From contig NC_135355.1 of assembly GCF_051622035.1 (NCBI RefSeq), positions 7,626,501-7,690,500 of the forward strand: 64,000 nt of DNA, read 5' to 3'. This document shows positions 11,433-47,997 of this stretch, piece after piece. The notes beneath the pieces are model-generated. The model saw nothing but the letters and a program-made list of their open reading frames with translations. It was not told the origin of the DNA and did not search any database. The stretch comes from Arctopsyche grandis. Lineage: Eukaryota; Arthropoda; Insecta; Trichoptera; Hydropsychidae. Position 1 is the first letter of the stretch, and every line of letters begins with the position of its first letter. Position numbers and translations under genes: made by a program.

Positions 11433-12039
11433 AAACCAACAAAAATAGAATATTTAATTTTTTTAGAACACTGTCAGGTATAAACACGTCGATTTTTTCC
11501 AGAAAAATTTGTTAACTCCCAAAAAAGATATTTTGTTTTGTTGTTTGTCTTGCTTTGAAAGATTTTTAGGAGATTATTTTGTACTTTATATACACTTATT
11601 TTTTTAATATAATACACCCCCCCCCCCTATAAAGTCATTCTCTATTGATGAAAAATTATGCCCCCCCCCCCCCCTCCCCCATTGAGAAAAGCGGAAATGA
11701 TGCTCCTGTCTATCAAAATCATACCAACCTTGTGTCGATACCAATCAAAGAGTAGTATTGGCCATTAATGCGCGCCTTTATTTTCAATATACATATGTAT
11801 GTATAATAAGCCGCCGCTGAATATAAATACTGTTTTTTTTATTATTATTTACTAGTGTTGGACCCGTTGATTTCAACGGGTGGTTTCGAAAAGGAATTGA
11901 AACTCGAATAAAAATAAAGTTAAAGATATTGAATCGACTGGTTTCGGAAAGAAATTGATGCACGAATTACGAAGTGATTACGAATTACGAACTACGTTTT
12001 GTGCATCGCCGACCTCCTGACGCCTTTGCCCCCGATGCC

Positions 12040-12610
12040 TCCGTCGCTCCGGGGCCTTCGGCCCCAGCGCCGCCGGCGCCTCCGGCGCCCCCGACGCCTT
12101 CGGCACCCCGGGGGCTTCGCCCCCAGCGCCGCCGACGCCTCCGGCGCCCCCAGCACCCCCGATGCCTTCGGCACCCCGGGGGCTTCGCTCCCAGCGCCGC
12201 CGACGCCTCCGGCGCCCCCAGCCCCCCCGATGCCTTCGGCACCCCGGGGGCTTCGCCCCCAGCGTCCCCGATGCCTTCGGCACCCCGGGGGCTTCGCCCC
12301 CAGCGCCCCCGATGCCTTCGGCATCCCGGGGGCTTCGCCCCCAGCGCCCCGATGCCTTCGGCACCCCGGGGGCTTCGCCCCCAGCGCCGCCGACGCCTCC
12401 GGCACCCCGGGGGCTTCGCCCCCAGCGCCGCCGACGCCTCCGGCGCCCCCAGCGCCCCCGATGCCTTCGGCACCCCGGGGGCTTCGCCCCCAGCGCCGCC
12501 GACGCCTCCGGCGCCCCCAGCACCCCGGATGCCTTCGGCACCCTGGGGGCTTCGCCCCCAGCGCCCCCGATGCCTTCGGCATCCCGAGGGCTTCGCCCCC
12601 AGCGCCCCGA
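12040..12610 (+). repeat. GC-rich minisatellite
   Basis: A tandem array of a unit near 45-50 bp built from GGGGGCTTCGCCCCCAGCG and GATGCCTTCGGCACCCCG blocks, with variants. Each unit can form GGGGGCTTCGCCCCC hairpins with a stable UUCG-type loop. Long proline- or glycine-rich ORFs in several frames on both strands are a by-product of the repeat and are not genes. Confidence 0.9.
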
Positions 12611-12611
12611 T

Positions 12612-12890
12612 GCAAAAATGAAAAAAATGAAAAAACTGAAAAAATGAAAAAAATGAAAAAACTGAAAAAATGAAAAAAATGAAAAAACTGAAAAAATGAA
12701 AAAAATGAAAAAAATGAAAAAACTGAAAAAATGAAAAAACTGAAAAAATGAAAAAAATGAAAAAAATGAAAAAACTGAAAAACTGAAAAACTGAAAAAAA
12801 TGAAAAAACTGAAAAAATGAAAAAAATGAAAAAACTGAAAAAATGAAAAAAATGAAAAATATGAAAAAAATGAAAAATATGAAAAAAAAA
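12612..12890 (+). repeat. A-rich minisatellite (AAAAAATG/AAAAAACTG units)
   Basis: Irregular alternation of 9-10 base units AAAAAATGA and AAAAAACTGA for about 280 bp. A shorter inverted array lies at 13115-13213 in the other arm of the same palindrome. Confidence 0.9.
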
Positions 12891-13485
12891 AAATTTTGTT
12901 CCCCATACTGGTTGATGGTTGATCGTCCGTCACATACAAATATACAAATATACAAATATACAAATATATTTAGCGACAGTCCGTTTTTATATATAGTATA
13001 CTGATCGTTTGTATACTGAACGATGGATACTGGCCGTTTATCATATATATAAAGACGGTAATCTGTGTGTCCTAACTTTCGCCGAACATAATGAATCAAC
13101 CAGTATGGGGAACAATTTTTTTTTTTTCATATTTTTCATTTTTTTAGTTTTTTAATTTTTTTAATTTTTTCAGTTTTTTCATTTTTTCAGTTTTTCAGTT
13201 TCCCAGTTTTTTCAGGCCCCGGGGTGCCGAAGGCATCGGGGGCGTTGGGTGCGGTGCGGCCGCCGGAGGCGTCGGCGGCGGGGGCGAAGGCCCCGGGGTG
13301 CCGGAGGCGTCGGCGATGCACAAAATGTAATTCGTAATTCGTAATCACTTCGTAATTTGTCATTTGTAATTCGTGCATCAATTTCTTTCCGAAACCAGTC
13401 GATTCAATATCTTTAACTTTATTTTTATTCGAGTTTCAATTCCTTTTCGAAACCACCCGTTCAAATCAACGGGTCCAACACTAGT

Positions 13486-13960
13486 TATAAATAATGGTCA
13501 TCTATCTTCTATATATATAAAAATGAATGTCTGTGTGTGTGTCTCGAATAGGCTCCTAAGCCACTGAAGCGATTACGATGGAACTTTCAGGATTTGTTGA
13601 ATGCATGTCCGGGAAGATTACTGTGAAAAAAAACGGGAAAAACGGGAATGAGTGTCATTCGCTATAATTTCAAATGTTTTCGCGCTGCGACCAGGGTGTT
13701 CGCTGCCTGCGTTGTTCCGAAAAATGGGAACGAGAACGGGAACGGGAATTGTATGCGTTTTAGTGTCATTGCAACGCATGCAGGGTTTATCTAGTTTAAT
13801 ATAAATCTGACTAAAATACAAGCCATTATTAATTGCAATGTGATGTTTTGAAAACACAAAGACTCGCATCACCGTCTTGGGTACCAGTTAAATTCGCGAC
13901 CATGCAATATACATATTGTATTGAATTTGTGTCATTGCATGTTGTACATATAATGTTGTA
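13486..13960. mobile_element. Probable non-coding Helitron-like or other dispersed repeat
   Basis: It begins with an AT-rich block and ATATATAAAAATGAATGTCT, then GTGTGTGTCTCGAATAGG and an ACGATGGAACTTTCAGG block. This opening is of a kind dispersed widely in insect genomes. Related TGTGTGTCCTAAC..GCCGAAC text occurs at about 13052 and 28210, next to other repeats. There is no coding capacity and the borders are uncertain. Confidence 0.35.
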
Positions 13961-24250: not shown

Positions 24251-26198
24251 AAATTTGATCATTAATTAATTTTTCTATTGGTGTTTTATATTGTTTATAT
24301 GTAGGTAGGTAGTTAGTTTTTACTTATAATACACCCTGAAATTTTCATCGGGTCAAAAACCACCCGTTGAAATATCAACTGGCACAACACTGGTTATAAA
24401 TAAAATCGTTGACTTGTAGGTATTTAGATGTGTTGTGGCCAAAGGCAATTATTTTTATTCTTATTTTTCTCATTGATTTATTTGTGTATGAAATTCATAC
24501 ACTTACCATTTAATTTCCAGTAATTCAATAAATTACATTTCAATTTTTAGTGACTTTAAAAATTATTTTTTTTTTAGTACTAACAATTTTATACGTTGGC
24601 AAAAAAAGTCGATCTTACTAAAATCGTTCAAGTTGGAGCCCGAGTCGAATCATAAAATAAAGTTCAGTAAGAGTCAGTAAATTTTGAACCAACTCTCCAC
24701 ATCCCTGAATAAAATGAAAGACTCGTTTCTACAATAATAATAGTTAATATTTTTCAATAACTTTATTTATATCAATCAATATACAGGTTTTTACGAGATC
24801 ACATTACTTAATATTATACATAGTGTGCGACTTTATACATATATACGTACATATAATCATAATATCCAATAATTAGTGATGACACATTTTATATATTACA
24901 CAAAACACAACCAGAAAACAAATTATACGCTGTTTTTAAAAATGGCAATCGAATAAATACATATTACTAAAAAGCGCATCCCACGAGTTATTGCTTGGCA
25001 ATTGATATGTATTTTATAACTTACCATTCTATAGTGAACCTTTCACACAGAATGAACACCGCTAAAGCAGTTAAGTATCTAAAACAATACTGAATAAAAC
25101 ATTAAAAATGCTTTTATTTTACATGAAGATTAATAATCGACGGGAAAATTCTTTCTAATGTGTATATCATATAGTACATGCATAATAAAGTACAATATAA
25201 TTATATCAGTGCAATTTACATTACAACGGAAATAAATGTGAAGTTCATACCGACTGTTAACATAAATACATAATGCCTTCTTACATTCTAAACATTGTTA
25301 AGTGCATATATTATATTTTTATTCATTTTCAGTGTATATAACGTTTTCTCGTCGTCTTCAAATTCCACGTCAGAAGTAAATTGATTCAATAATATCTCGT
25401 CTAAAGATATACTTGCTAATCTGTCATACGGGGAAATATTACTAACACTACAATTACAGTATATATGTATATATAGATCAGCATTAATAATCACTGATCC
25501 ATTTAACATATGATAACTCTATTTTCTGAAGTGTCGTCAGGTTAAAATATACATATTAATAATGTAAAACTACTTTTAAGAAACTTTGGTAGATAAAATA
25601 TCACAAAAAATCGACAGACAGACATATAATAACTATGTACAACGGTTAATTTTAACCATTTCAATTCTGTACAGTAAATATACATAAATTTTCAATACAA
25701 TTTAAAACACATACATACACTAAATGTAAGGCGTAACAAATTGGCTAACGAAAGGAACAATTAAATAATGTAAATTCAATTAGGAAGCACAGTTTTAAGA
25801 ATGGGAAAAATCAATCAAAAGGTACTAACGTTATGGCACATATATAATAATCAGTTTTTCAACAGTAATACATAGTCTAAATTTTTTTTAATACATTTAT
25901 TTTTTGGACACGTCAGTTCAGTAAGGCGTTCGCCGCAGGAGCAAGCCGTAAAATGTATATTTATAATATGATGACAATTTAAGATCACGTGGGAATCTTC
26001 ACAGCGATGGCTGTGCTAAGATGCATTACGACGACAACACACAAATTTCTCTCGTTGTCCAAGTTACGGATGCCCGACTTGGACCAGTCATTTATTTAGT
26101 CACAAACATAAAATCTTCCATGACATACGATCCTCGATCGGCTTATTCCACGGGTTTAAATTTACTTAGGATAATAAAAACTAGAATCGTTGGTGTTT
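24251..26198. other. Gene-free AT-rich stretch with one Helitron-like tip
   Basis: At about 24347-24396 a sequence reads ACCCGTTGA...TCAACTGG, then CACAACACTGG before T, related to the tips of the 11851-13485 palindrome. The remainder is AT-rich with no recognisable gene. A short antisense ORF at 25288-25509 has no motif I know. Confidence 0.4.
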
Positions 26199-47195: not shown

Positions 47196-47997
47196 CTACA
47201 ATGAAGACTTCTAGGTGTAAAAATTGCTTGGGTAATTTTAGTTGTCGTATTATGACTTAAATAAGGTTTTAGCACTCGGGAGGTGAAACACTCCCTCGTC
47301 ATAGTTGCACCTCTCGACAATCCCAATTCGATTGCATTCCTTATGAAATTTATTCTTTAACACGCAGACATATATGATATAAGAATTGAAAATATGGGGA
47401 CAGATATACATATACATAAAACCCTGTTGACTGTTGAAATATTAGCCCACCATGTCTGTGCCAAAATTGTCAAGAGTCGAATGGCAAACTCGTTTTAAGA
47501 AAGTACTTTCCTTGATAAAAAAATGTTTTATAGATTTCATACATTGTTTGATGTTAAGTGTTAATTTTTGAAATAAAATCATGAATCTAACCTAAAATAA
47601 TCCAGTGTTTACATAACGTAGTCAATTTTGATACTAATCTTTAAAACATCTAACGAGAGGTACGTCACACTTGGGGGTGGGGTGGGGTGGGGTGGGGTGG
47701 GGTGGGGGGGGGTGGGGTGGGGTGGGGGGGGGGTGGGGGGGGGTGAAAATAGTGGACGATTAGTCGGGTGATAGCGGGAGGTGGGGCGGGGGCGGGGGCG
47801 GGGGTCAGACCGGGTGGGGCCTCGCCTGGAAGTCTGAATGTGTGGAGATCGGATCGGATTGGTCGAATTACGTAACTCGAAGGGGCACCCTCGAGCGAGC
47901 GAGCGAGTGAGAGAGAGAGAGAGAGAGACTTTCTGTCGAGAGCGAGAAGGGGCGCGGCGCAGGCGCTGAAGGGGGGGGGGGCGCACGGCGAACTCAC
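47196..47997 (-). other. 5' UTR intron of the TRIR gene with G-rich repeat arrays
   Basis: An 802-bp intron inferred from the CAG|GTGAGTT donor on the minus strand at 47998 and the TTGTAG|GAGG acceptor at 47195. On the plus strand it contains (GGGGT)n and longer G runs at about 47673-47745 and a GGGGCGGGGGCGGGGG tract at about 47783-47803. The pre-mRNA from the minus strand is correspondingly C-rich. Confidence 0.6.

Follow-up and report, generated by a model that had tools for sequence, protein, structure and literature searches.

Two Helitron copies in opposite orientation as the probable origin of a palindrome-like locus in Arctopsyche grandis

Is a lopsided palindrome with a Helitron-type tip at each end a single unusual transposon, or do two ordinary ones happen to face each other? 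The question is raised by a locus in the window, the whole 64,000-nucleotide stretch of Arctopsyche grandis DNA that was analysed (GCF_051622035.1, contig NC_135355.1, positions 7,626,501–7,690,500); coordinates below are those of the window. A first-pass annotation, made from the sequence alone, had described the locus as a head-to-head Helitron-type dimer whose minisatellite arms expanded unequally. We conclude that it almost certainly consists of two independent non-autonomous Helitron insertions of one family, belonging to two 5′-end subfamilies and lying in opposite orientation 42 bp apart.

Anatomy of the two halves

The near-identical inverted ends that gave the locus its palindromic appearance are real: self-comparison of the window pairs 11841–11973 with 13363–13495 over 133 nt at 96% complementarity. 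Both outer tips also bear out their description as Helitron-type 3′ ends, with CTAG at 11852–11855 on the left and 13481–13484 on the right, a T as the next base on the element strand and, in DNA folding, a hairpin 10 nt inside each end (left, −7.9 kcal/mol, z −3.8; right, −5.8 kcal/mol, z −3.1). The left 3′ end (11852–11881, minus strand) is made up of the hairpin ACCCGTTGAAATCAACGGGT, the 6-nt spacer CCAACA and CTAG, and the right one (13455–13484, plus strand) of the hairpin ACCCGTTCAAATCAACGGGT, a spacer and CTAG. The same two blocks, a GC-rich minisatellite and an A-rich array, are present in both arms and shorter on the right, as had been noted. What had been missed is that each half has a 5′ terminus of its own and that 42 bp of host DNA separate the two.

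We read the left half as a non-autonomous copy of 1147 bp on the minus strand (11852–12998), with a 5′ end of class F1. From its 5′ T at 12998, where dispersed copies also end, it runs through the terminus TACTATATATAAAAACGGACTGTC (12975–12998), which recurs at many sites with differing flanks, the box CAACCAGTATGGGGAACAA (12896–12914), a tandem array of 9/26-bp units that is A-rich as read and T-rich on the element strand (12614–12888) and the GC-rich minisatellite with 41/68-bp periods (about 12037–12613) to the hairpin end. The right half is a copy of 444 bp on the plus strand (13041–13484), with a 5′ end of class F2. It begins with TC at 13041 in the terminus TCATATATATAAAGACGGTAATC (13041–13063), which likewise recurs at other sites with differing flanks, and carries the same box CAACCAGTATGGGGAACAA at 13097–13115. 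Next, within 13116–13315, come a short T-rich array (13121–13215) and then a GC-rich block, also short (about 13214–13315). The left copy begins with TA (TACTATATATA) rather than the canonical TC; for this reason the name Helitron is applied here to the right copy, and the left one is described as a copy of the same family with a non-canonical second base. The left terminus was placed by comparison of flanks and by junctions at which CTAG is directly followed by TACTATATATA; in the fetched loci, termini of this type read TAC or TAA and then TATATATAAAAACGGACTGTC, and their flanks differ at most sites.

The centre of the locus (12880–13120) was searched against the whole 475.7-Mb genome, which gave at least 45 matches (40 of 1676 candidates scored). 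Among the matches listed, the only full-length one is the window itself; the others reach at most about query positions 1–123 and end at the 5′ end of the left copy, except for two short matches to the shared box on the opposite strand. As each half has its own recurrent 5′ end, the locus resolves into two copies placed head to head (5′ to 5′) with 12999–13040 between them.

The two 5′ ends belong to different classes. Over the 22 bases from TATATAAA onward, the left copy is identical to every one of the 51 other F1 copies, and just inside its own 5′ end the right copy agrees with the best F2 copy equally fully (22/22), whereas the two window copies are alike at only 13 of these 22 positions. 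The whole 5′ head of the right copy gives mixed signals: its best match, at 79%, is again an F2 copy, but its mean identity is 40% to six F2 heads versus 55% to 50 F1 heads. Whole heads vary greatly in length, and those of F2 contain GT arrays that are longer in some copies than in others.

The 3′ end is shared by the family. Over the last 168 bp the two window copies differ by three substitutions and by a 14-bp stretch that is present on the right and absent from the left; the identity of 83% between the arms over this span reflects these substitutions, the indel and the resulting frame shift at the cut end and is not a measure of divergence. In the same 168 bp, the left copy has the same sequence as 34 of the 61 other copies, and only three positions separate the right copy from five unlinked ones, of which four are F2 and one is F1. 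The last 120 bp cannot separate the hypotheses, because there the right copy is equally near to the left copy (two differences) and to its nearest unlinked relatives (two differences).

Other sequences in the window deserve mention. Directly to the right of the pair, 13508–13900 begins with TCTATATATATAAAAATGAATGTCTGTGTG, a start that we take to resemble another Helitron 5′ end, and contains 28 nt with 79% identity to the 5′ region of the right copy. A diverged tip with four mismatches, ending in CTGG and then T, lies at 24376–24393, and a G-rich array of about 14 GGGGT units at 47673–47745.

The host repeat and its empty sites

The spacer at 12999–13040, to which no strand is assigned, is a piece of an older dispersed repeat. 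Its first base, T (12999), pairs with the host A at 11851 across the left copy, and its last base, A (13040), with the host T at 13485 across the right copy, so that both copies are flanked by A and T. The left flank, spacer and right flank were joined, with both copies removed, and searched against the genome. This query gave at least 41 matches (40 of 179 candidates scored), 39 of them outside the window at 78–94% identity, and 37 of these 39 listed matches span both joins. Eight of the 39 were fetched, having been picked for spanning both junctions, and all eight align continuously through them, with no duplication or loss at either join. The spacer is identical to these paralogues in 35–39 of its 42 columns; the match of the left flank is patchier.

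The first junction reads A/T in 8/8 paralogues. At the second, seven read A/A and one A/G, whereas in the window the base after the join is T; we put this one-base difference down to variation of the host copy, and a pre-insertion AT at this junction is an assumption that the paralogues themselves do not display. Target duplications of fixed length, which had been named in advance as evidence against a Helitron reading, are absent from both junctions of the pair. Together, these observations indicate that the copies inserted separately into an older AT-rich dispersed repeat, probably at different times. Each would have gone in where a host A was followed by a host T, and no target bases were duplicated.

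The family across the genome

A 33-base tip sequence has 149 exact matches on the forward and 156 on the reverse strand of the 475.7-Mb genome (305 in all). Its reversed-pattern control has 0 and 0, and the occurrence of the tip is therefore not due to chance. Complete copies were defined as those running from a 5′ end to the tip within 1650 bp, identical ones being counted once, and were taken from the fetched loci and the window. This gave 63 distinct copies, 52 of class F1 and 11 of class F2, the window pair included. They run from a 5′ end to a single tip, with no terminal inverted repeats within the element; one F1 copy (L017) has a reversed tip inside. In this copy and at one further locus (L050), the same tip is inserted within the F1 5′ region just after TATATTTGTA, a nested insertion.

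All listed family 3′ ends carry the CTRR terminus as CTAG, as do both window copies. Most copies of the family lie between A and T. T follows CTAG in 63/63 complete copies, and A precedes the 5′ terminus in 46; the others have G (5), T (1) or other 5′ forms (11). G before the terminus fits the CTAG of a preceding tandem copy. T stands directly after CTAG at 47 sites where a tip is followed by a neighbouring 5′ end, which begins at that T. In the loci read, such head-to-tail tandems (CTAG then T; for example L002, L026, L029 and L038) join F1 and F2 copies in mixed order.

Single copies vary widely in length, from 392 to 1358 bp in F1 (n=51) and from about 445 to 1086 bp in F2 (n=11), the F2 minimum being the right copy of the window, the shortest F2 among those extracted. 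With the window pair and L017 set aside, both arrays are present in 49/50 F1 and 9/10 F2 copies; GC blocks measure 89–663 bp in F1 and 0–408 bp in F2, and T-rich blocks 0–622 bp and 50–346 bp, respectively. The GC and T-rich blocks of the window copies, about 617 and 288 bp on the left and about 114 and 86 bp on the right, lie inside these ranges. Since both halves fall within the single-copy range in length and in array size, no special event in the arms is needed, and the unequal expansion proposed at first drops out: the unequal arm lengths follow from the copy-to-copy variation in array length within the family. The palindromic look of the pair comes from what its two members have in common, namely the family's 3′ end and the two internal arrays.

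CTAG, the hairpin, A/T flanks, the lack of target duplication, single-ended tips and head-to-tail tandems together identify the anatomy of the family as that of non-autonomous Helitrons. Helentrons insert between T and T; we rejected membership in that group on the ground that most copies have A before and T after. From this anatomy we infer that the copies would move by rolling-circle copying through a Rep/Hel enzyme encoded elsewhere. The genome contains 16 matches to PF14214 (Helitron_like_N), and no autonomous relative with the family's ends was found in the roughly 3-kb loci around them or in L090, the latter as scanned for a hairpin plus CTRR. In G000:C3:20710636-20738225 (L075-L078, L080-L082, L086-L090), PF14214 matches repeat with an exact period of 9,032 bp in four units; 3.3-kb stretches are identical in three of the units and differ by 18 bases in the fourth. 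The pattern is suggestive of a recent tandem array in which the element's frames are interrupted, of a segmental duplication or of an assembly repeat.

Alternative origins and known systems

Several other origins have to be set against two separate insertions. A single head-to-head dimer that transposed as one piece and whose minisatellite arms expanded to different extents afterwards would account for the long inverted arms at 96%, for arrays in the same order in both arms and for the mere two differing positions in their last 120 bp. It is nonetheless highly improbable, for the pair with its spacer is found at the window alone among the matches listed, the spacer is part of a host repeat that runs on into both flanks, the arm lengths stay within the single-copy range and the empty-site paralogues contradict it directly. 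The halves have different 5′ ends, each common to unlinked copies, and a 14-bp indel separates their arms; on the same two grounds we rejected a local inverted duplication. Of the dimer as first described, the head-to-head arrangement of two copies thus stands, and the single palindromic element does not, given the different 5′ ends and the host spacer. Foldback elements have long inverted arms with tandem arrays of variable length, and the locus resembles them in both respects. A TIR transposon of the foldback or another type, with arms of tandem repeats and moved by a transposase, is nevertheless scarcely credible as an explanation: complete copies elsewhere bear the tip at one end only, neither junction has a fixed-length target duplication, and CTAG is always followed by T in the listed copies. 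The inverted repeats at both ends and the fixed-length duplication that define this class were thus not found, and nothing in the copies and junctions analysed pointed to the tip as a member of a TIR family.

Two separate insertions might still have become neighbours other than by accident, the second Helitron having been drawn to the AT-rich (TATATA-rich) 5′ end of the first. Exact patterns for the 5′ ends match 889 times on the forward and 942 times on the reverse strand of the genome (controls, 18 and 21), and head-to-head sites within about 60 bp number five, each found on both strands. About 0.1 such pairs are expected from random placement (889 × 942 × 64 / 475.7 million), so the five sites are an excess, and four of them have F1 or F2 ends on both sides with up to three mismatches. 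The fifth (L073), however, has an AT-repeat spacer and a generic short motif only, and the same excess would be expected if the copies shared a preference for AT-rich targets; we therefore regard attraction as unlikely. Each of the five sites has a spacer of its own sequence and length, the outcome to be expected of separate insertions. Tail-to-tail sites number 0 in the genome under a pattern stricter than the head-to-head one, and this count therefore carries no information on asymmetry. If attraction to older 5′ ends were true, it would make head-to-head pairs far commoner than random placement does.

Two separate insertions, the reading we prefer, leave the general understanding of Helitrons unchanged. 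The locus is an empty-site demonstration for two neighbouring insertions and illustrates how a Helitron family that carries repeats can, by inserting twice in opposite orientation, mimic one large palindromic transposon. No report of a palindromic Helitron was found in the literature searched, which is no proof of absence.

The anatomy of non-autonomous Helitrons in insects is described in PMC6544945, PMC4344730 and PMC3789558, here drawn on in excerpt. As far as these excerpts go, the present family resembles Hel-2 (PMC4344730) and Hel1 (PMC6544945) in its 3′ CTAG/CTRR, upstream hairpin, A and T flanks and lack of target duplication, and Hel-2 also in having an internal repeat array of variable length. 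It differs from both in its two long arrays, one T-rich and one GC-rich, and in the TA start of its left subfamily. Neighbouring Helitrons are also on record. In the excerpted text of PMC2267711, two dissimilar maize Helitrons lie side by side and are attributed to consecutive insertions; the abstract calls them head-to-head, and the body describes a head-to-tail junction without a spacer. The same text cites head-to-tail tandem Helitrons in a bat. Unlike the maize pair as described there, the copies in the window face each other 5′ to 5′ across 42 bp of host DNA.
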